Shown piece after piece: positions 9,620 to 40,356 of a DNA stretch of 44,151 nucleotides; within the stretch, counting starts at the first letter, position 1; every line of letters begins with the position of its first letter. The translations under genes and the position numbers were made by a program. The DNA is from Acidimicrobiaceae bacterium (lineage in GTDB: Bacteria; Actinomycetota; Acidimicrobiia; Acidimicrobiales; Aldehydirespiratoraceae), in the NCBI GenBank assembly GCA_026710865.1, contig JAPOQG010000221.1, forward strand, positions 1 through 44,151, read 5' to 3'. The notes beneath the pieces were generated by a model. The model saw nothing but the letters and a program-made list of their open reading frames with translations, searched no databases and was not told the DNA's origin.

Positions 9620-9711
9620 GAGGGCCGCACTGCCTCCAATCACCGCCCGCGGTCAACCCGGCCACAGCACAACAAGACCCGTTACCGGACGACAACCGAC
9701 AGATGAATGTC

Positions 9712-9766
9712 ACAGTACGGTGCGAGTGTCCTTGCAATTCACGTACTGCGTGGTGGAATTTCAAGG
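9712..9766. promoter_or_regulatory. Interleaved inverted repeats upstream of the DUF4143 ATPase (candidate operator)
   Basis: CAGTACG (9713) / CGTACTG (9742) and CCTTGCAATT (9730) / AATTTCAAGG (9757). Confidence 0.5.
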
Positions 9767-9779
9767 ATAGGATGGCCAA

Positions 9780-10940
9780 ATGCCGCTGATCGACCGGCTG
9801 GTGGATGCCCAGAACCTGCTGAAGGCGATATCGCATTCTCCGGTGACGCTGCTCACCGGGCCCCGGCAGGTGGGGAAGTCCACCCTGGCCCGCCAGACAA
9901 TTGCCTCGCCGGCTCCGGCGTTCTATGACCTCGAGGACCATCGCGACCTCGCCCGGCTGGCCGAGCCGACGCTGGCGCTGCGCGACACCGGCGACACGAT
10001 CGTGATCGACGAGGCCCAGCGGATGCCCGGTCTGTTCCCGACGCTTCGAGTCCTCGTCGACGAGGACCGCCGACCGGGCCGCTTCGTCGTGCTCGGCAGC
10101 GCGTCGCCCGACCTCGTCGGCCTGGGCTCGGAGTCGTTGGCCGGTCGAGTGACTCTCGTCGAGTTGGGGGGCCTGCGGCTCTGCGACGTCGGCGCGCACC
10201 GTCTCGACGACCTCTGGCTGCGGGGCGGGCTGCCCGAGTCGTTCGTCGCCGCCACCGATGAGGCGTCGAACCGCTGGCGCGACGACTACATCTCGACCTT
10301 TCTCGAGCGCGACCTAGCCAATCTCGGCTTCCGATTCCCGGCCACGACGATGCGGAGATTCTGGACGATGCTGGCCCACTACCACGGGCAGACCTGGAAC
10401 GGCGCTCGAATCGCCCGGTCGATCGACGTCTCAGAAACCACCGTGAGGCGATACATCGACGCCCTCACCGATGCCCTGGTCGTGCGCCAGCTTCCGCCGT
10501 GGTTCGCCAACATCTCGAAGCGGCAGGTCAAGTCGCCCCGGGTCTACATCCGGGACTCGGGCCTGCTGCACCGGCTGCTCGGCATCACCACCATGCTCGA
10601 CCTCGAGCGCTCTCCCGCGCTCGGGGCCAGCTGGGAAGGAATGATCGTCGAGCAGCTCCTGACCAGGTTCGCCTCCGCCCATCCCACCTACTGGTCCACC
10701 CACGCCGGCGCCGAACTCGATCTGCGACTCGAGATCAACGGGCGAGTCCTCGGATTCGAGATCAAGCGCACTGCCCGGCCGGCGGTCTCCAAGTCGATGC
10801 ACAGCGCCCTGGCCGACCTTGACCTCGACCACCTGCTCCTCGTACACGCCGGCCCCCACCGATTCCCTTTCGCCGACCGCATCACCGCCATGAGCGCAAC
10901 CGAACTCCTGACCGGAGACGATCCGCTCGCTGCCCTCTAG
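9780..10940 (+). CDS. AAA_14/DUF4143 ATP-binding protein
   Basis: [52 protein letters not shown]. Confidence 0.92.
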
Positions 10941-11151
10941 TGTCCTGAGTCAGGAGTTCGTGGTGATGTAGGCGAGCTGGCCTACGGCTGCCGTTCCGAT
11001 GCGCCGTCCCGGCCTTCCTCCCCCGAATTGGTGGCGATTGTGGGTATCCAGTGCCCCAATATGTCCCCAATCTCGCAGCAAGGGGCAAACCGGAGGTGAC
11101 CAGTCCGCAAAATGGTCGAATACGCGGCGAATCAGCCGCTCAAGACACTAG
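10937..11151. mobile_element. Candidate 215-bp MITE-like element with IS630-type ends in a CTAG target
   Basis: CTAGTGTCCTGAG (10937-10949) and inverted CTCAAGACACTAG (11139-11151); no complete gene inside. Confidence 0.55.
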
Positions 11152-17892: not shown

Positions 17893-18024
17893 TGAGATCA
17901 GCCTCCGTAGATCGCTGGCGGCCCTCCGGGAGGCGGGGGCCGCGGAACGAGCGTAACGAGTGAGCGGCGAATTCCATCCCCGGTCCCGCGGCCGACCGGC
18001 GACAAGGCGTCCTCAACTCGGCGC

Positions 18025-18291
18025 AGCCGCCGCGGCGTTGACCGGCGACTGGGCCGCCGCCAACAGCGTCGAGCTGTGCTACACCCCGACCTGCAGCTCT
18101 TGGGCCAACCCCATCGAGGCGCACTTCGGGCCACTGCGGGAGTTCGTGCTCAACAACTCCGACCACCGCAACCACACCGTGCTCACCCGCCGGCTGCACG
18201 CCCACCTGCGATGGCGCAACGCCAACGCCCGCGACCCCGACCTGCTCGCCGCGCAACGCCGAGAACGCGCCCGCACCAGAGCCCAACGAGA
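18025..18291 (+). pseudogene. C-terminal fragment of an IS630-family transposase
   Basis: LCYTPTCSSWANPIEAHFGPLREFVLNNSDHRNHTVLTRRLHAHLRWRNANA; no N-terminal part or DDE upstream. Confidence 0.75.
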
Positions 18292-18295
18292 CCGC

Positions 18296-19483
18296 CTATC
18301 TTGGCTTCGGGAGCACCGAGCGGTGTGGCCCGCTGTGCCCTTCGGGGAGCACGCAGGGCTTCTTGGCGCGGGGCATGGGCACGCCGCATGTCGCTGGCGG
18401 TTGCAGCGGCGCGAGCAGAGAACCCGACGGGGTGTCCTCGGTCGGAATCTGCGCGCTCAGCCGCAGCGATTCCTGCGACGACATGGCCTCCAACGCCTGC
18501 TCCTGTGTCGCGCGGTAACGCACGGCGACACTTGTGAACGCCAGATCTCCTAGAGGCGACTCAGTGACGACACCCTCGTCGAGAAGCCTGCCCTTGTAGG
18601 TGTGGACATGGGCGGAGGGCTTGCCCAGCCGGTCCCCTATCGACACCAGCGACGAGTTGGCCGTATCGGGCAGCATCGCGAACAGGAACCGCTTGTCCGC
18701 CGCCGAGAGCCTCGACCAGACTGGAGTGATCACCTTGTCTGCCACGTCGTCCTCCATCAGCGGGACGGCTGCGTCAACATGCGCTGCGGTGATTGGTCCC
18801 GGAGGACCGCCGCACGCTCTCCACAAATGCGCCCCGATCGACTGGACGGCGTACGCGAGCCCGCGGGTAGCCGATGCCGCACGCACGAGTTCTGGCCCGT
18901 CGATTTGCACATGGGCGTCTGCGAGGGGTCCCTCGATGGCAGCCATGGCATCGTCCAGGCTCAAATGCCCGACGGTGTTGTGGTCACAGCGTCGGAAGAA
19001 AGTGAACCCAGGCTGCTTCAACAAGGTGTGCTTCATCTGAGCCAGTCCGGTCCCGATGAAGGCGAGCCGCTTCTTGTTGCGTTCAGTCACACGCTGCAGC
19101 GAAGACGACAGGCTGCTGGCCTCGTCTTCGGGAAGATTGTGGAACTCGTCTACTGTCACCAGCACCCCGGCCCCGCCCTCAGCGACCGCCGCGTCGACCA
19201 ATCCCTCCAACATGCGTCGCAGGGATCGCTTCCGGGCCGGCTGGTTCGTCCAGTTCACGCCAAGCACCTGCGCGATGTTGAGTCCCGTGAGTCGCCGCTT
19301 GGCATCTGGGGAGATGTCGTCGATGTGTTCCAGGCACCCCTCCTCGATCATGGACAGGACACTGTCCTCAGATCGCGGGTTCACGTTGGCGTCCACGCTG
19401 ATAACACGCCATCCGGCGGACTCGGCCTCATGCTCGATCTCGTTCAACAGTGTCGTCTTGCCGGCCCCCCGAGGACCCATCAT
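18296..19483 (-). CDS. AAA/ORC-like ATP-binding protein (coding homology probably continues to ~19618)
   Basis: MMGPRGAGKTTLLNEIEHEAESAGWRVISVD; VLVTVDEFHNLP; upstream in frame IDHPFTPGFGQRPPVLAGREPLL. Confidence 0.8.
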   Translation of the reverse strand: MMGPRGAGKTTLLNEIEHEAESAGWRVISVDANVNPRSEDSVLSMIEEGCLEHIDDISPDAKRRLTGLNIAQVLGVNWTNQPARKRSLRRMLEGLVDAAVAEGGAGVLVTVDEFHNLPEDEASSLSSSLQRVTERNKKRLAFIGTGLAQMKHTLLKQPGFTFFRRCDHNTVGHLSLDDAMAAIEGPLADAHVQIDGPELVRAASATRGLAYAVQSIGAHLWRACGGPPGPITAAHVDAAVPLMEDDVADKVITPVWSRLSAADKRFLFAMLPDTANSSLVSIGDRLGKPSAHVHTYKGRLLDEGVVTESPLGDLAFTSVAVRYRATQEQALEAMSSQESLRLSAQIPTEDTPSGSLLAPLQPPATCGVPMPRAKKPCVLPEGHSGPHRSVLPKPR

Positions 19484-30550: not shown

Positions 30551-31261
30551 ATGTCCGACACCACCCCCGCCATTTTCGAGGCTGCCATCGCGGCCTCTCC
30601 CGCCTCGCTGCGGGAGGCTCTGCGAGAGACGATTCTCTTCGCTGAGCTCGACGACGGGCAGCTGGATCACATCGCGGCCGCGGGCGTGGTGCAGTCGTTT
30701 CAGCGGGGCGTCGTCCTGTTCGAGGAGGGAGCCGAGCCCGGCGAGTGCTACCTGGTGCTGTCGGGACGGGTCGCTATCGCCCAAGAGTCCGGCGACGGGC
30801 GAAAGTCGCTGCTGGCGGTGCTCGGTCCCGGCGAGCTGTTCGGCGAGATGGGCTTCCTAGACGGGTCGAACCGCTCAGCTCAGGCTCGGGCCCTGGAGGA
30901 GTCGAGGGTCCTGATGGTCCCCTACGAGGAGTTGCGGCACCTGTACGAGAACACACCCTCGGCGCTGTGGAGCGCGGTCCAGCTCCTGGCCAGAAGGTTG
31001 CGGACCATGGACCAGGCACTGTCGGACACGGTGTTCCTCGATGTGATGGGCCGCACTGCCAAGCGCCTGCTCGACATGGCCGGCGACAGCGACGAGTTCG
31101 AGATGCCCCTCACCCAGGAGGAGTTGGCCGCGATGGTGGGCGCCAGCCGGGAGCGGGTCAACAAGGCCATCCACGCCTTCGTCAAGCTCGGCTGGATCAC
31201 CCACGACCACCGCAACTACAAGATCACCAACCGCCGCAACCTGGAGATCCGCGCCCGCTGA
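30551..31261 (+). CDS. Crp/Fnr-family transcriptional regulator
   Basis: GVVQSFQRGVVLFEEGAEPGECYLVLSGRVAIAQ...LTQEELAAMVGASRERVNKAIHAFVKLGWI. Confidence 0.93.
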   Translation: MSDTTPAIFEAAIAASPASLREALRETILFAELDDGQLDHIAAAGVVQSFQRGVVLFEEGAEPGECYLVLSGRVAIAQESGDGRKSLLAVLGPGELFGEMGFLDGSNRSAQARALEESRVLMVPYEELRHLYENTPSALWSAVQLLARRLRTMDQALSDTVFLDVMGRTAKRLLDMAGDSDEFEMPLTQEELAAMVGASRERVNKAIHAFVKLGWITHDHRNYKITNRRNLEIRAR

Positions 31262-31304
31262 CCGCAACACGAACATCGCCAGCTGACAGCCCGGAGGCAT
31301 TCCG

Positions 31305-33188
31305 ATGACCGATGCGAGCCAAGCCTCTCAACCAGAACTGTGGCCCGACGGCGGAGTCGGCGACCGGCATGCAGAGCAGGCTCAACACGCGGCCCAACCT
31401 GCCGTCGACATGGCGCCTCGCGGCGTCGACGACTCCAGCGACAAGCAAGCAGCGCTGTCCCGGATGGACCGTGCCGATGATCATGAGGCGAACCTCGACA
31501 GCGGGACCGAGGGCGGGCAAGTAGTGAGGGCTCAGGATCCTGAGCGCTCATCGCAGGTGGTTGCCGGCGTCAGACCCCGCGCCGTCGACGACACTGGACA
31601 TGAGCGCGCTGCGCGGGCACGGGGCTCAATGCTCTGGGCGGCCTACGGGGACGCACTCGGCTTCGTCAGCGAACTTGTGGACCGCAGGGGACTCGAACGG
31701 CGGACTCGGGGCGCGCCGCTCGATCACCTCATGGAGTGGAAGAGACGGATCGGCGGCAGGCGGGGCGTCGACGTGTCGCTTCCCGCCGGGTGCTGGTCCG
31801 ACGACACTCAGCTACGAATGGCCGTCAGCCGTTCGATCGGCGGCCACGGCTTCGACGTCGAGACGTTCGGCCGCGTCGAACTGCCCGTCTGGCTCTCGTA
31901 CGCGCTCGGCGGCGGCCGGGCCTCCAAGGCTGCGGCCAAGAACCTCGGGAAGCCATCGACCCTGTGGTACGCCAACACCTTCGCCGGCTGGGCGAAGGCT
32001 GGCGGCAACGGTGCGGCCATGCGCATCCACCCCCACGTCTGGGCCTCGCCGGACCTGGACGGAGGCTACATGCTCGATGTGATCGCGGACAGCGTCTGCA
32101 CCCACGGACACCCCCGGGCCATCGTCGGCGCCTGCTTCCATGCGGCAACCCTTGCCCACTGCCTAGGTACCGGCACGATTCCCGACTCCGACACATGCGT
32201 GGACATCGCCGACCATGTCGGCAACGCGCTCCATCTGATCAAGGATCACCCGACTCTGGGGCCGACATGGAGCGGCCTATGGGAGCGAGAGACCGGAGAA
32301 CGGCTCAGTGATGCTTGGCATCTCACCGTCGATGAACTGCGCGGCGCCATCAAGAACGCCGTAGACGGCGTAGAGGCCACCGACAGCCTCGACGCCACCT
32401 ACGCGGGGATCGTCAGCCGTCTAGGCCTGAGCGCCCGAGAGCAACAGGGCAGCGGGATCCTCACAACCGTCGCTGCCGCGGTGCTGGCAGCAACTGCGTC
32501 CAAAGCGCACGAGGGTGTGGTATCCGCGGCAAACGCCATCGGCACCGACACGGACACGATCGCCAGCATGGCCGGAGCCTTGCTAGGCGCCTGCGACGAA
32601 GCTGGGGACCCTCCTGAGCAACCCCTCGACAGCCCCTACCTCGAGAGCGAAGCCGATCGTCTAGTCGCGGTCTCAAGGGGAGAGCAAGCCGACGACCACT
32701 CCTACCCCGACCTCCTCACTTGGTCTGCACCCGCGACCCAGGCAGATGCCCTGGTGAGCGACAACGGCGACCTAGCGGTCGAAGGTCTTGGACCTGCAAA
32801 GCGGCTGCAAGAAGAAGCCATCTACACGGCCCGCCGGGACTTCGCCTGGGAATGGGTACGAACCAACTTCGGCCAGACGCTGCTGATCAAGCGCCGGCCC
32901 GAGGTCAGGCGGAGAGCCTCCCACAATGACCCGGCGCCACCAGCTGCTCCCGCGCGTAGGCCTCACTCCCGACGAGCACCGGAACATCGAAGTCGGGAGG
33001 ATGCAACCCCTGAGGCTCGCCGTCCCGAATCCGGCCGTCGAACGTTAGATCGGGCCGTCCTCGACGCGAGGAAGAAGATCTCCGATGATGCGGCCCTGGG
33101 ATCAATCGTGCGAGATGTCGCCCGCGAGGGATCACTCGGCGACCTTCTCAATTTCTTGAGGATCATTCGCGACGACTTGCGCCGTTAA
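31305..33188 (+). CDS. ADP-ribosylglycohydrolase-family protein with long N- and C-terminal extensions
   Basis: MLWAAYGDALGFVSELV...CWSDDTQLRMAVSRSIG...GNGAAMRIHPHVWA...AIGTDTDTIASMAGALLGA. Confidence 0.85.
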   Translation: MTDASQASQPELWPDGGVGDRHAEQAQHAAQPAVDMAPRGVDDSSDKQAALSRMDRADDHEANLDSGTEGGQVVRAQDPERSSQVVAGVRPRAVDDTGHERAARARGSMLWAAYGDALGFVSELVDRRGLERRTRGAPLDHLMEWKRRIGGRRGVDVSLPAGCWSDDTQLRMAVSRSIGGHGFDVETFGRVELPVWLSYALGGGRASKAAAKNLGKPSTLWYANTFAGWAKAGGNGAAMRIHPHVWASPDLDGGYMLDVIADSVCTHGHPRAIVGACFHAATLAHCLGTGTIPDSDTCVDIADHVGNALHLIKDHPTLGPTWSGLWERETGERLSDAWHLTVDELRGAIKNAVDGVEATDSLDATYAGIVSRLGLSAREQQGSGILTTVAAAVLAATASKAHEGVVSAANAIGTDTDTIASMAGALLGACDEAGDPPEQPLDSPYLESEADRLVAVSRGEQADDHSYPDLLTWSAPATQADALVSDNGDLAVEGLGPAKRLQEEAIYTARRDFAWEWVRTNFGQTLLIKRRPEVRRRASHNDPAPPAAPARRPHSRRAPEHRSREDATPEARRPESGRRTLDRAVLDARKKISDDAALGSIVRDVAREGSLGDLLNFLRIIRDDLRR

Positions 33189-33898
33189 GCAATCAAATCA
33201 GGCAGAACCTTTCCCGGCAGAACCTTCCCGCAGGGCCACACGGGCTGGATGACCGAGTCTCCCTTGTCGGCGCGCCGTGGACGCCCGGCGGCGAAGCTCG
33301 CCTACAAAACTATGTGACAGCCAACCTCATGTCAATACGCTTCTGACCATTCATACATGAGAGGAACCGGATCACCGCTACATCATCACCCACCGGCTCC
33401 CGGCGGGCGACACGATGATCTACTCAACGGCCACCCGTAAACCGCTGGCAGCACCTCGGCGCCGGGACCACCCGCTTCGTCCACGTCTCCGCCTCCGGCT
33501 AGCCCCCGGCAGGCCGTGACCTGCCGGCGGTGGTTGGCCACCTGACCGCGCCCGTTCCGCACGGCGCGTGCAACCGTGGAAGTGCTGCCGATGGTCAACC
33601 GGTGATCGTTGGGCAGACGCCGAGCCTCTCGCACGGACGCTGTGTCCACATTGCTGAGGCTCCGCGGCGCAGTGCTTGAACCCGACGCATCAACACACGC
33701 GAGTCGCCGTCATGCACTGAATGACTTGCGCCCTCACGACTAGTCGACTGTGAAGGGACCGGTCGTCAAGATATAGGCACGACCGCGATGCCGTCGGGGG
33801 CTCGGTGTCGAGGACCAGGCTGGCGAGCCGTTACGGGTGCACATCCGCCAGCGTGCGCGGAGACCGGGCTGCGGGCTTGCGGCGGGCTGTTTGCCGCT

Positions 33899-34249
33899 TC
33901 ATGGCGAGGTCCCTGTCACCGAGCGAACGATGTCGATCACCACCGTGACTAGCACCAGGCCGGACACAGCCAGAAAGGCGATGTTGATGGCCTGTAACCG
34001 CGCCGCGACCGCCGGGTCCGCGTCGTCGGTCGTGTCCTTCGGCAGGCGGATACCCCTCCACGGCGGTGTCCAGGGCACGGCGTCCGGCCACATGTAAGAG
34101 AAAATCCGCGAAGACAGCAGGCTGAACGGCATGAACAGCATGAAGCTGTAAAGGAGGTTGGCCCCCAGGACTGCTACAGCGGTCCAATAGGCTGCGATCG
34201 CGGCCCCATGTGCAACTAGGAACGTGACGATGGCATGCCGTCGTGTCAT
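33899..34249 (-). CDS. Small multi-TM protein, candidate partner/immunity protein
   Basis: MTRRHAIVTFLVAHGAAIAAYWTAVAVLGANLLYSFMLFMPF...INIAFLAVSGLVLVTVVIDIV; 14 nt after the 34263 gene. Confidence 0.6.
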   Translation of the reverse strand: MTRRHAIVTFLVAHGAAIAAYWTAVAVLGANLLYSFMLFMPFSLLSSRIFSYMWPDAVPWTPPWRGIRLPKDTTDDADPAVAARLQAINIAFLAVSGLVLVTVVIDIVRSVTGTSP

Positions 34250-34262
34250 GGCCCCGGCAACT

Positions 34263-35213
34263 CTATGTGCAACGGCTGCCGCTGTGCGCAGACATGGCCA
34301 AGGTGGTCTTGATCTTGAGGCACTGGCCCAGCGCTTTGACACTGCAAGCGAAGAGCGCCACGACCACCAACATCCCGGCAATCACGTTCCCGATCATGGT
34401 CAACGCCCAAAATGGAGCGCCTGCCATCATGTAGATCAGCGAGTTGTACGCGGCGTAGCAGATCATCCCCGTCTCGGCTACATCGAAGTAGATCGTGCCG
34501 GTAACCCACCCCCAGACGAACTCGGGGTCGGCGACGACCGGGTAGAGGGCCTCGTCGGCAGTAGCAACTGACTGAACGATGGTTCGGCCCTCAACCGTGT
34601 ACGAAGTCTCCACGACGGTGCCGTCGGCGGCGCGCGCCCACGGCGCTTTGAACGCCCCTATCGTGAACCCGTCGGCGTCGACGACATCGATCGATCCGTC
34701 GTCGTCGAGTTCGAGCGTCGCGCCGCCGGGCAGCGATACGTCGAATCTCAACTGATGCAGGCTCGTCACCGCCGCCAACTCGGCGGACACGGCAAACCCT
34801 GTTGAGTCGGTCTGGATCGTCAGGTCCACGCCGCCGGTGATGTCGTCTATGGTCGTGGTGCCGTCGGCGTTGCTCTTGCGCTCTCTGCCCGTCAGGCCGA
34901 CCATGTCGACGGCGACGGACAACCCTGCGAGGGTGCTAGAGACGGCCCGGGTACCGGTGCCGACGTTTGTTACGGGCCCGACGGTGGTCAAAGGCGACAG
35001 ATCAGGCGTCTCGGCCGGCGCCGATTCGTCGACGGTGCCGATGTCTTGGTCCATGGGCCCCGGGAGCAGGCCGTCGTCTGCGGCGGCAGGCGCCAAGCCT
35101 GTAGCCGCGACTGCGACCACGACGGCGACCAAGAAAATGATCTTGCCCTTGTATCTCAACCTGAGTCGACTTCGCTTGCCAGCCCGCAGGCCGTGCTTCG
35201 CTTGCTGTGCCAT
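34263..35213 (-). CDS. Secreted protein with YPVVADPEF-type motif and hydrophobic C-terminal segment
   Basis: Signal peptide KIIFLVAVVVAVAATGLAPAAADD; ALYPVVADPEFVWGWVTGTIYFDVAETGMICYAAYNSLIYMMAG...ALGQCLKIKTT. Confidence 0.7.
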   Translation of the reverse strand: MAQQAKHGLRAGKRSRLRLRYKGKIIFLVAVVVAVAATGLAPAAADDGLLPGPMDQDIGTVDESAPAETPDLSPLTTVGPVTNVGTGTRAVSSTLAGLSVAVDMVGLTGRERKSNADGTTTIDDITGGVDLTIQTDSTGFAVSAELAAVTSLHQLRFDVSLPGGATLELDDDGSIDVVDADGFTIGAFKAPWARAADGTVVETSYTVEGRTIVQSVATADEALYPVVADPEFVWGWVTGTIYFDVAETGMICYAAYNSLIYMMAGAPFWALTMIGNVIAGMLVVVALFACSVKALGQCLKIKTTLAMSAHSGSRCT

Positions 35214-35300
35214 ATGTCCTCCTTCGCGTGCGCCGAAGCCACTGTGACTCCGCTTGGTTGGCGTTGTGCGTGTGCACGTCCAGCGTGGGCGGCGTTGTGT

Positions 35301-35366
35301 GGGACATGTGTGTCAAGTTGTGAAGCGAATGTCCCAGATTGCTGGGACATGTGTGCCAACGTTGGC
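35301..35366. promoter_or_regulatory. Palindrome cluster in a divergent intergenic region
   Basis: ATGTCCCAG-ATTG-CTGGGACAT (35329-35350), GGGACATGTGTG at 35301 and 35344, perfect GCCAACGTTGGC (35355-35366). Confidence 0.7.
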
Positions 35367-35381
35367 GAACTCCACCGGTGG

Positions 35382-36119
35382 ATGCGACAGATCGGCCGAT
35401 ATGTTTCGGGTCCTGTGGCTGTTGCAGCGTCGAGCGGCGACGAGTTGACGAGGGCGCATCTGGCCTGCGGGCGCATCGTCGGCGGGGCGCGCGCCATCAC
35501 GGACGCCCACCGCTTCGGGGTGCCGGAGGGGCCTCACTACAGGCTGTGGGAAGCGGAGTACCACTCCGAGGCTGTGCGCGTCTATGGCGAGTCGCTGCCT
35601 GCTCCTTACCAGCGCGACATCGCCTCGTTGTTCCACCACAGCGCCGACACGATGGCCACACAGGCCATCCAGGCGGAGTTGGCCGAGGACTGGGTGATCG
35701 TCGCTGGCTACATGCGAAACGCGAGTGCCGCGATCATGGGCTGGCTCTCATCTGAGCGGGCTGGGGCGGCTACGCCGGACGTGGGTGAGTCGCCTGTGAT
35801 CGATGACCGCACCCCGATGGTGATCCGCTTCGACCGCTTGGCCGCGCTGGCCTCCCGCGAGGGAGCCTGCCGCCTTGAACGAGCCGCCGACGCGGTGCAG
35901 CGACATATGGGCGCACCGTCGATGCAGGCGCTCGACGACGCTCAGCAGCGGCTGCTCGAGGGGGTCGCGTCGGGTGCCGCGATCGTCGATCTGGCCGACG
36001 AGTTCGGCTACTCGCGAAGCTCCATGTACCGGGAGTTGTCCAAGCTGTGGAAGGCTCTCGGAGTGTCCGACCGAGGCGAGGCGATGCGCAAGGCCGCGGC
36101 CGAAGGCCTCCTCGACTGA
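35382..36119 (+). CDS. Transcriptional regulator with LuxR-like C-terminal HTH (start uncertain)
   Basis: LLEGVASGAAIVDLADEFGYSRSSMYRELSKLWKALGVSDRGEAMRKAAAEGLLD. Confidence 0.65.
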   Translation: MRQIGRYVSGPVAVAASSGDELTRAHLACGRIVGGARAITDAHRFGVPEGPHYRLWEAEYHSEAVRVYGESLPAPYQRDIASLFHHSADTMATQAIQAELAEDWVIVAGYMRNASAAIMGWLSSERAGAATPDVGESPVIDDRTPMVIRFDRLAALASREGACRLERAADAVQRHMGAPSMQALDDAQQRLLEGVASGAAIVDLADEFGYSRSSMYRELSKLWKALGVSDRGEAMRKAAAEGLLD

Positions 36120-36129
36120 TGGCCCGGCA

Positions 36130-36300
36130 GGCGCCAAGGCTTGAGCGCAGGCTTCAGCCACCGGTCGCTGATGAACAATGTGTCGACGAAGAGGGGCTCG
36201 ATAGAGGCGATCGTGGTGGCGTCGACCATTGCCAGCGTGTTCTTGCGGACCTCGCCGCCGACCACGATGACATCTCGGCGGGTCAGGGCTTGAGCGCGGT
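36130..36300 (-). pseudogene. Possible remnant of a DeoR-family C-terminal domain
   Basis: RRDVIVVGGEVRKNTLAMVDATTIASIEPLFVDTLFIS without HTH or flanking domain. Confidence 0.35.
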
Positions 36301-36719
36301 CAGCGGCAGACCGCGGTCTTGTCGTCGGTCTGGTAGCCGGGGCCCGAGGGCGGTCACGACGAAGAGGCGGGCGGGATCGCCGCGCCGGGTCGTGTCCACC
36401 CGGGAGCGGGCGGAGGGCAGCGACTGCATGGCCTTGGCTACGCCTCCAATTTTCGGAGAGATCACACACTCCATGATTCGAGAACTCTGAACTCCACGCC
36501 CGGTCGGAGCCTGGCAGTTCCGAACCTTGCCGGTCCGGCCGGGGGTCAGGGCTCGATCAGGCCCGTCGGCCGCGGCCCGTCATCACGGGCGTCTGCTAGT
36601 GTTCTGAGCCCTCAGGCCAATCAGCAACGAGGATGTGCGTCTAGTCGCATGGATGGCGGTGCAGCCCCAGCGGTCCTAAGTGGCAAGCAGCATGGCAGCG
36701 AGTGAGCCCTGTTCGCTGC

Positions 36720-38822
36720 CTACGAAGCCATACCGTTCGCTATCTGCTGGAGCGTCCGAGGCGGATCCGAGTCGTCCAGCAGAACCCAGTAGTCCCAACC
36801 GTCGGAGCGCTCATCGCCGTCGGCTCGTGCCGCTCGCAGCGGCGAGTCGTAGACGCGCCCGTCTAGCTCGATGAGGGCATCGGGCGTGATCTCGGCGATT
36901 GTGTTATCACGCTCCGGATTGGCAGGAATGAGCATGTTTCCCGCCTTGAGCACTCCGCTGGCGACCAGTTCACTGAGCGAGGGGGGCGTGGTCGCTTCCG
37001 GCTCGGCAGCGGCGCGGCTCGCTGTGATGGTGCTCGGCTTGTAGTGGGGGTCGGACAACCGTCGGAAGCCCTCTTCTGTGACTCGCGCCATGGTGTGTCG
37101 GCGCTTGTCGAGGAACTCTTCGTACTTCATGGATTCCCAACCGTCCGGCAGCGCGTGCCAGAACTGCTGGTTGATGAGCACCTCGCCGGTGAGTTTGCGG
37201 GCTGCGGCCAGTTCGGGCCAGTAGTCGCTTGGTGGCCGATCCCCGATGATCTTGTTGGTCGCTGAGTCCGTTGGGGCATAGTTGGCTACCTGATTGATGC
37301 TCCTCGTCGTCGTGATCTCCTCTCTCTTCAGGTGCGCCCTCGGGAACAAGTGATGCGTCTCCACGCCCGTGGCCGTGCCCGCGGAGGGGTCCATCCAGTC
37401 CCTCACCTTCTCGTTGATGGCGAACAGGTCTGCGTCGAGGACGTTGAGGGCGGCGACGTACGCCTTGTACGCGGGTGCTCCAGTAGTCGACGTGATGAAG
37501 TCGTCGGGCAGCCGTATCTCCCAGAAGTCTGGAGTGAGCACCGTTGCTATCACGCCGTCGACTATCGCGATGAAGTCTTGCGGGTTGGTTGACTTGCTGT
37601 CGTTGAAGCGAGCGAGGTCTTCCTCCATGGTGCTCTCGGGCGAGTTCGTGTAGCGGCCCGTGGTCTGTGCCATGAAGAACCACCTCGCCATGAGGCTGCT
37701 CAACGTCGCCTTGTCCACATTGAATCTTGTCGAGCCGATCAGCCACAGGGCGTAGGTGTAGATCACGGTGTTGTTGGACGTGATCATCTTCTTTGACCGA
37801 AAGCCGGCCTTCGCCAACACATGGAGGAAGCCGTCCCAGTGCGATGGCTTCAACACCTCGCTCTGCGCCGCCTTCAGGCGATCAAGCTCCCTGTCGCGCT
37901 GCTCCTCGTCGATACGCCTAGTCCGCTGGTCGCGTCCGCGCAGAGCGCTGTAGGCGTTCCGAAGGCGGGCGCGGCCCTGGCCGACCGCTACAACCGCTCT
38001 GAGCATTCTCCCCGGCTCCGGCTCGATGTAGTGGTTCTTCGGCGTCCACGAGACTTGCTCGCCGTCCTGCGCGGACGCAGTCTCGACAGTGAGCCTGGCG
38101 TGGCGCGAGAAGCGCTCCAGCGCTTCGCGGCCCTCGTCCCAGAAGACACTGAACCAGGTCAGGATGAAGTCCGCCTGGGTCAGGTTGACCCCCTCGGAGT
38201 TGATCCTCACGAACACGTCGGCGACCTGTTCCCGCTCGGCGTCGGGCTGAATCTCGACCACCGTGAACAGGTAGTCCCTGATGCCATGGAGTCGAACGAA
38301 TACGGCTTCGAGCTCCTCCTCGTCAGCCTCGCTGAGTTCATGCTCCTCTTGGTATCGGCCGATGAACGCCTTTCTTGCCTGGAACGGGCTCTTGAACACG
38401 GCGGAGATGTCTGGGATCCAGTCGCGGCTCTTCTTCAGCGCGGCGCTCTGCACCTCGAACTGCTCGGTGAACGGGTTGAACGCGATCTTGATGGCCGCAC
38501 TTCGGTAGTCGTCATCGACGACCGGCTCGCCTGTCATGACGGCGTACAGGCTCGTCAGGCGCTGCTGTCCGTCGACGATCTTGGCCGTCGCAGTCTTGGT
38601 CTTCACTTCCGAGCCGATCGTTCGACCGTCATCGCCAGCGGAGTTCCAGAACATCAATTCTCCAACCGGGTAGCCGCGATAGATCGAGTCCACCAGGTCG
38701 CGCACCTTGACCTTCTCCCACACGAAGGGCCGCTGGATGTCCGGCAGGCGCAAAGCGCCAGACTGCACCGCCGCAACAAGATCCTGCACCGTCCAGGGCA
38801 CGGGCTTGAACATGTCGCTCAT
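36720..38822 (-). CDS. DUF262 (GmrSD-like) + DUF1524/HNH + C-terminal RAMA-like domain; type IV restriction-like
   Basis: LPDIQRPFVWEKVKVRDLVDSIYRGYPVGELMFW, KIVDGQQRLTSLYAV, ETHHLFPRAHLKRE...NQVANYAPTDSATNKIIGDRPP, LSELVASGVLKAGNMLIPA...SDGWDYWVLL. Confidence 0.88.
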   Translation of the reverse strand: MSDMFKPVPWTVQDLVAAVQSGALRLPDIQRPFVWEKVKVRDLVDSIYRGYPVGELMFWNSAGDDGRTIGSEVKTKTATAKIVDGQQRLTSLYAVMTGEPVVDDDYRSAAIKIAFNPFTEQFEVQSAALKKSRDWIPDISAVFKSPFQARKAFIGRYQEEHELSEADEEELEAVFVRLHGIRDYLFTVVEIQPDAEREQVADVFVRINSEGVNLTQADFILTWFSVFWDEGREALERFSRHARLTVETASAQDGEQVSWTPKNHYIEPEPGRMLRAVVAVGQGRARLRNAYSALRGRDQRTRRIDEEQRDRELDRLKAAQSEVLKPSHWDGFLHVLAKAGFRSKKMITSNNTVIYTYALWLIGSTRFNVDKATLSSLMARWFFMAQTTGRYTNSPESTMEEDLARFNDSKSTNPQDFIAIVDGVIATVLTPDFWEIRLPDDFITSTTGAPAYKAYVAALNVLDADLFAINEKVRDWMDPSAGTATGVETHHLFPRAHLKREEITTTRSINQVANYAPTDSATNKIIGDRPPSDYWPELAAARKLTGEVLINQQFWHALPDGWESMKYEEFLDKRRHTMARVTEEGFRRLSDPHYKPSTITASRAAAEPEATTPPSLSELVASGVLKAGNMLIPANPERDNTIAEITPDALIELDGRVYDSPLRAARADGDERSDGWDYWVLLDDSDPPRTLQQIANGMAS

Positions 38823-39103
38823 CGCGGAGCCTCTGGTGTCATCGCTTGTGGCACAGGTTCGGGATTGCGCCAGATGGAGCCGGCTGCCCTTCGGTGGGTT
38901 CGTGTGCTCATGGCATCCAGATCGGGCGCGGCATCGGGATCGGCGCTGCATGCCGACGCGACGAGAATGACGGCTGCGAGGGCTGCGAGGACGGCACTCG
39001 ACTTGGTCCGGCGCACAGCAGCCGAGCCCTTGTCGGAGCGGCCATGCGCAGGTCTTGCGCGGTTGCGGCGGCCACAACGGATGGTGCGCTGAGAACCGTT
39101 CAA
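38819..39103 (-). CDS. Small lipoprotein-like ORF, ATGA overlap with DUF262 gene (start uncertain)
   Basis: TKSSAVLAALAAVILVASACSADPDAAPDLDA lipobox; TGA overlaps ATG at 38822. Confidence 0.4.
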   Translation of the reverse strand: MNGSQRTIRCGRRNRARPAHGRSDKGSAAVRRTKSSAVLAALAAVILVASACSADPDAAPDLDAMSTRTHRRAAGSIWRNPEPVPQAMTPEAPR

Positions 39104-39251
39104 GTCAGGCTCCTTGACTGTGACGACATGCCACCTGAACATTACTTGGCAGCCGCGACACTGGACGTCACTAGCGGCAGACATGCCTCTACACGCCTCG
39201 GCCCGGCGGCGGGTGCCCACTGCGCCACAGGGGACGCGTGAGGGCGTGGCG

Positions 39252-39298
39252 ATCTGTGTGCAGTTTTCCGTCCATATGACAGGTTTCTGCACACAGAT
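39252..39298. promoter_or_regulatory. 47-nt palindrome with perfect 12-bp arms around CATATG
   Basis: ATCTGTGTGCAG-N23-CTGCACACAGAT; core related to 4444-4487. Confidence 0.7.
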
Positions 39299-39399
39299 GG
39301 CAGCACGGCTACCTCGCGGCTGGCACAATGGCTGGAGGGGCCGCTATGCCGCGCGACTTGGCCGCATGCCAATACACCATGAGCTAGCGACTCGGAACA

Positions 39400-40356
39400 C
39401 TAGGCCGATAGGAGTTGGTCGACGGCGGCTTCGGGGGTGATCTCGCCTCGCTCCACGGCCTGCTCTAGGTCGGCCCGGCGGTCGGCAACGCCGGGACGTG
39501 ACTCGAACTGCTCGAGCAGGCCGCGCTCTAGCAGCACCTGCATCCAGGCCAGGCGGCCCCGGGCCCGGCGGCGAGCCAGGCCGCCGGACGCTTCGAGCAG
39601 GCGGCGGTGCTCGGCGATGCACTCCCACAGCTCGTCCACTCCCGCTCCGGTCGCCGCCGAGACCGTCATCACTGGGGTCGGCCCGTCCTCGCTCGTCGGG
39701 GCCAGCAGGGGCAGGGCCCGGCGGAGCTCGGCCGCGGCCAGGCGGGCCGCCTGCTCGTTGGCGCCGTCGGCCTTGTTGACCGCGAGCACGTCCGCCAGTT
39801 CCAGCAGGCCCCGCTTGACCGCCTGCAGCTCGTCGCCCGCGCCGGCCAGCGTCAGCACACAGAGGCAGTCGACCGACGCATGCACGGCCGCCTCGGACTG
39901 GCCGACGCCGACGGTCTCCACCAGCACCACGTCGTAGCCGGCCGCCTCCAGGACCGTGATCGCGTTGGGGGTCGTGCTGGTGACACCGCCGAGCGTTCCG
40001 GCCGAAGGCGAGGGTCGGATGAAGGCGCGGTCGTCGGCGGCCAGCCGGGCCATGCGGGTCTTGTCGCCCAGGATCGACCCGCCCGTGATCGTGCTCGAGG
40101 GGTCGACCGCCAGCACGCCGACCCGGTGGCCGGCGCCTGTCAGCCGGGCGCCCAGGGTGTCGATCAGCGTCGACTTGCCCGAACCGGGCACGCCGCTGAT
40201 ACCCACCCGGTGGGCTCCCCCGGCATGCGGCAGCAGCGCCGAGAGCAGCTCCTGGGCGAGACGGCGGTCGTCGGGCCGGGTCGACTCCACCAGGGTGATG
40301 GCCCGCCCCAACGCCGTGCGGTCACCCGCCAGCACGCCGGCGACCAACTCGTCCAT
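39400..40356 (-). CDS. meaB: Methylmalonyl-CoA mutase-associated GTPase MeaB
   Basis: VGISGVPGSGKSTLIDTLGARLTGAGHRVGVLAVDPSSTITGGSILGDKTRM. Confidence 0.95.
   Translation of the reverse strand: MDELVAGVLAGDRTALGRAITLVESTRPDDRRLAQELLSALLPHAGGAHRVGISGVPGSGKSTLIDTLGARLTGAGHRVGVLAVDPSSTITGGSILGDKTRMARLAADDRAFIRPSPSAGTLGGVTSTTPNAITVLEAAGYDVVLVETVGVGQSEAAVHASVDCLCVLTLAGAGDELQAVKRGLLELADVLAVNKADGANEQAARLAAAELRRALPLLAPTSEDGPTPVMTVSAATGAGVDELWECIAEHRRLLEASGGLARRRARGRLAWMQVLLERGLLEQFESRPGVADRRADLEQAVERGEITPEAAVDQLLSA

Follow-up and report, generated by a model that had tools for sequence, protein, structure and literature searches.

A single restriction-type gene at 36596-39403 of the window (the whole 44,151-nucleotide stretch of Acidimicrobiaceae DNA analysed here) lies between two short inverted tips with no transposase beside it, and this raises the question of whether the 2,808-bp segment is a mobile unit and, if so, which machinery moved it. 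The left tip, CTAGTGTTCTGAG (36596-36608, plus strand), consists of a C, a duplicated TA and an IS630-type end; its inverted partner, CTCGGAACACTAG, occupies 39391-39403 (the right tip, CTAGTGTTCCGAG on the minus strand), and the arms of this pair are 12/13 (92%) complementary. The consensus CTAGTGTYYYGAG was matched exactly at four places in the 44-kb window, compared with none in 100 dinucleotide-preserving shuffles, and these four copies formed two convergent pairs, 10937/11151 and 36596/39403. A sequence-only reading of this DNA had reported both pairs, and their positions, the 12/13 match of the second and the convergent orientation of the first were confirmed. In the whole genome (4,327,641 bases) the consensus occurred five times and a reversed control pattern not at all, the fifth copy (C192:6542) terminating a truncated IS630 element; hence the 13-mer is neither frequent genome-wide nor, in the window, unoriented.

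The same tips were found at the ends of intact insertion sequences of 1,166-1,175 bp in sibling genomes (G013:C24, G013:C42 and G031:C87), and in relatives they also end MITEs of 131, 143, 155 and 282 bp. One G013:C42 copy encodes an uninterrupted 366-aa transposase, which NCBIfam places in IS630 with 279 bits (cut-off, 100) and whose final codons and stop (...DSGH, TAG) lie inside the tip. These data showed that the tips are genuine IS630-family ends, as the earlier reading had proposed, and the full copies with these ends that it had suggested looking for exist as the intact sibling elements, with the truncated copy on C192 as their counterpart in this genome.

Insertion of IS630 and ISY100 in CTAG with duplication of the TA is already known (PMC2170065). 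For the present tip family, two tandem G013 copies stood end to end with a single CTAG common to both, and a 143-bp MITE in the sibling G008 (contig C64) had CTAG on each side, in the context ...CACAAC-CTAG. The empty site of this MITE is one uninterrupted CTAG in G011, G009, G001 and G000, the genome studied, which established that the family inserts into CTAG and duplicates the TA. The proposed CTAG target was thus supported by the sibling MITE, while at the cassette itself just the flanking CTAGs are visible.

With regard to the sites occupied, the TAG of the tip CTAG closed an open frame of 100 codons or more for 28 of 67 tips in the loci examined, whereas the figure for the CTAG sites of those contigs as a whole was 25%, and the window contained 43 CTAGs against 124 expected. 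This suggests a preference of these insertions for stop codons, which may reflect the rarity of CTAG elsewhere. Single tips at G011:C5:31387, G008:C96:20768 and G015:C154:2736 (loci L113, L094 and L108), from three species, had a common outer flank, GCCGCGAC, and identical inner 32 bases with no obvious partner, so that this tip may stem from an ancient insertion common to the three species or be a conserved sequence.

At the right end, the cassette meets meaB (39400-40356, minus strand), a conserved flanking gene. The tip had been described as abutting the meaB stop; the adjacency held, but the tip does more than abut, since its CTAG supplies the TAG itself (39400-39402, minus strand). Four relatives (G011, G007, G001 and G009) carry meaB without the cassette, the upstream gene, which ends at 31261 in the window, being only about 30-60 bp away and their alignment to the window ending at 39407-39413, and in G007 and G009 the meaB TAG stop also lies within a CTAG at the matching position. 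The sibling alignment with meaB begins at window position 39404-39413 (39387 in G006), so that alignment with cassette-less relatives is lost at the right tip, as had been expected if the tips bound the segment. On these alignments, the right break is the position predicted by CTAG insertion, and gene conservation also stops there. A CCTGAG just past meaB in G006, G013 and G014 was considered as a half-tip and judged to be chance, because it holds the TGA stop of those genomes and has no CTAG before it.

The left side offered no such comparison. The flank at 36120-36595 had no orthologue in relatives (100 genomes searched), and for this reason the cassette's own empty site could not be found, either via meaB (all 16 genus genomes) or via the left flank (100 genomes); the search for an empty site put forward by the sequence-only reading therefore succeeded for the sibling MITE and not for the cassette. 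An insert of 8.1 kb separates the upstream gene from meaB, and its part outside the cassette (31262-36595) comprises repeat-like stretches, an ADP-ribosylglycohydrolase gene (31305-33188) and a conserved unnamed gene (35046-36119); within 33189-36595, relatives matched only scattered repeat-like stretches and the latter gene, in other surroundings. G003 and G010 likewise hold an ADP-ribosylglycohydrolase gene plus others between the upstream gene (stop at 31261 in the window) and meaB, so this interval gains genes repeatedly. To the left of the cassette, a stretch of 154 bp (36281-36434) has counterparts of 71-82% identity in other genera and one more in this genome (G000:C17:1385-1538); the others include G015:C5:43336-43488 and copies in G044, G019 and G084.

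The one intact gene in the cassette (36720-38822, minus strand) encodes a 700-aa protein of GmrSD(DUF262)-HNH-RAMA type, with the HNH part putative. Its GmrSD N-terminal domain (GmrSD_N, DUF262) scored 114.8 bits (E 7.5e-33; Pfam cut-off, 33.2) and contains a DGQQR motif in translation, the stretch HHLFPR...INQVANYAPTDSATN (HHLFPR...N...N) is HNH/DUF1524-like by eye, and the C-terminal RAMA domain scored 38.4 bits (E 1.3e-9; cut-off, 35.2); no GmrSD C-terminal domain was found above the Pfam threshold in this protein. PADLOC returned partial matches to HEC-05, PDC-M55C, SspE and other DUF262-type defence proteins, and the sole PDB relative by sequence was the DUF262 protein 7p9k/7p9m, over 51 residues (11-61). 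RAMA is a proposed, unproven reader of 6mA or DNA modification (PMC11037411). From these domains, motifs and matches, the gene product is read as a predicted type IV-like, modification-dependent restriction enzyme.

DNA homology of the cassette to other Acidimicrobiia was confined to 36749-38833. Homologues of the gene with 65-80% identity in other Acidimicrobiia have different surroundings, lack the tips and align over the gene alone, and inspection of the 80% homologue (G006:C99) for tips found none; thus, the gene spreads by other means too. Within the cassette, the 568 bp that lie upstream of the gene (38823-39390) are non-coding and without relatives. This region also contains a palindrome, TCTGTGTGCAG...CTGCACACAGA at about 39253-39298, or TCTGTGTGCA...TGCACACAGA at 39249-39301 with about 25 bp between the arms, copies of which in four sibling genomes (L156, L157, L158 and L159) have conserved arms and a varying middle.

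As for the transposase, tblastn found neither the family enzyme nor a remnant of it inside the cassette (best match, 28 aa with E 1.4), and together with the domain search this agrees with the earlier description of a segment without a transposase. That description had pointed to an IS630 fragment at 18.0-18.3 kb; a distant IS630-like remnant with a weak DDE_3 match does lie there (17960-18553, plus strand), but it is just remotely similar to the tip-family transposase (32% over 44 aa, E 0.044) and was rejected as the source of the ends, the matching transposase being the truncated C192 copy. No intact family transposase was found in the assembly (424 contigs, about 93% complete), which contains this truncated copy alone.

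The two ends of the cassette differ in how far they resemble the family. At the right end the likeness runs about 13 bp further inward (TCGCTAGCTCATG), positions 14-26 matching family ends at 10 of 13 sites (p ~0.005 versus random window segments), a likeness that is weaker once gaps are allowed (p 0.037); at the left end no likeness to family ends was detected beyond 13 bp (p 0.17-0.4). For ISY100, about 24 bp per end are probably needed (PMC2170065), and against this standard of terminal repeats of about 24 bp at both ends, the cassette reaches about 26 bp on the right and 13 bp on the left. Low subterminal likeness at one end also characterizes the right end of the 215-bp MITE in the window and the 282-bp element at L097. 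The shortness of the left end, and the truncation of the sole family transposase seen in the assembly, suggest that the cassette may no longer be able to move. The cassette is present in a single copy, and no second cassette was found.

The MITE with the same tips as the cassette (215 bp, 10937-11151) has CTAGs that form the stops of a DUF4143 gene on the left and a conserved class-V aminotransferase gene on the right, and at the aminotransferase end the CTAG is kept at the matching position in G006, G014 and G010. The DUF4143 ATPase gene (a PADLOC PDC-S01 match) and this MITE together occupy 9625-11151, between genes that are neighbours in siblings. This insert is another small acquisition of a candidate defence gene beside a tip pair.

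Taken together, we consider it fairly probable that the segment 36596-39403 represents a passenger element of IS630 type, non-autonomous and of the kind termed tIS or mobile insertion cassette. We infer, rather than observe, that the 2.8-kb segment moved as one unit and that the transposase acted in trans. A full IS630 copy elsewhere would provide the transposase, which would attach to the two ends and excise the cassette at GTGT...ACAC by cut and paste, and the cassette would then join the TA inside a CTAG, with duplication of the TA. The most likely target would be the CTAG ending meaB, in which case meaB would be left intact and a defence gene would be added to the variable interval; the expected empty site would run from the left flank ...GGCGTCTG-CTAG-GCCGATAGG... 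to meaB, with a GTCTGCTAGGCCGAT-like junction.

The main alternative history, in which the two tips are remnants of separate IS630 or MITE insertions and the gene arrived otherwise (for example, by defence-hotspot recombination) and never as a cassette, is unlikely in our judgement, yet it accounts for several of the observations. Solo tips do occur in relatives, the DNA from the upstream gene to meaB varies, as the cargo of G003 and G010 illustrates, the left tip is without subterminal likeness, and homologous genes are found elsewhere without tips. However, with just five exact tips in 4.33 Mb, two independent tips would be expected to lie convergently within 2.8 kb with a probability of roughly 0.003 (a rough estimate, higher if the interval is a hotspot). 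Moreover, neither tip is joined to the remainder of an IS or MITE, and the closest partner of each is the other tip, barring a 3-mismatch site at chance level. Capture of the restriction gene by a complete IS630 element that then lost its transposase gene, leaving a decayed compound element, would produce the same ends and could accommodate the approximately 570 bp of non-coding DNA without relatives upstream of the gene, but we regard it as improbable, as no transposase remnant accompanies them beyond the 28-aa tblastn match with E 1.4. Finally, coincidence is a highly implausible source of the matching ends: single 13-mers with one mismatch do turn up at background rates in most genomes, but the four exact matches were opposed by zero in 100 shuffles, and identical sequences demonstrably terminate IS630 elements and MITEs.

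To place the passenger element among its relatives, tip pairs were surveyed in 100 relatives and 397 genomes of the order, two overlapping sets of about 430 genomes in all. Among the matches listed, the other exact convergent pairs were MITEs of 131-282 bp or transposase-bearing elements, and the 2,808-bp pair was the only one beyond MITE length without a transposase. The search for other segments bounded by these ends, likewise suggested at the outset, thus yielded MITEs and transposase elements and, among the matches listed, no other passenger cassette. A 1,465-bp pair in G147 was rejected as a second passenger element, as it holds a transposase of 62% identity.

The entry and exit of single defence genes at genomic hotspots are largely unexplained. 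In G+C-rich genomes, CTAG is rare and often found at stop codons. A more general proposal, which we advance tentatively and with some doubt, is that IS630 machinery carries anti-phage restriction genes in trans into CTAG, as single-gene cassettes, and thereby adds defence genes behind housekeeping genes that stay undamaged. If this is true, the CTAG target would account for the tolerance of such insertions, and a transposase-less IS630 cassette with a single restriction gene would serve as a minimal carrier in defence-gene traffic.

Several known systems share features with this locus. The passenger protein has in common with GmrSD-family type IV enzymes and BrxU (7p9k, 7p9m) a DUF262 N-terminal domain with DGQQR and, as read by eye, an HNH-like stretch; in contrast to them, it adds a C-terminal RAMA domain, and the PDB likeness covers residues 11-61 alone. 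The cassette resembles IS630/Tc1-mariner elements such as ISY100 (PMC2170065) in its terminal inverted repeats, its CTAG/TA target and the sibling transposase ending at the tip, whereas it lacks a transposase and has an inverted repeat of 13 bp (12/13) instead of 24 bp. With IS630-type MITEs (the 143- and 282-bp families in G008 and the 215-bp MITE in the window) it shares tips, CTAG targets and non-autonomy, but its length is ten to twenty times theirs, and it holds an intact protein-coding gene. The terms tIS and mobile insertion cassette denote known passenger elements that lack a transposase (PMC9330008, PMC5444012), an example being the qnrS2 cassette of Aeromonas pAC3 (PMC5444012), and in the literature covered, which was partial, no IS630 example carrying a restriction gene came to light. 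The qnrS2 cassette and the present one both have a passenger gene enclosed by ends of IS or MITE type, lack a transposase and are presumed to be mobilised in trans; the latter differs in belonging to another IS family, in carrying a restriction rather than an antibiotic-resistance gene, and in being a single copy whose movement is presumed. Thus, the cassette at 36596-39403 probably adds an IS630-type example with a restriction gene to the known tIS/MIC class.
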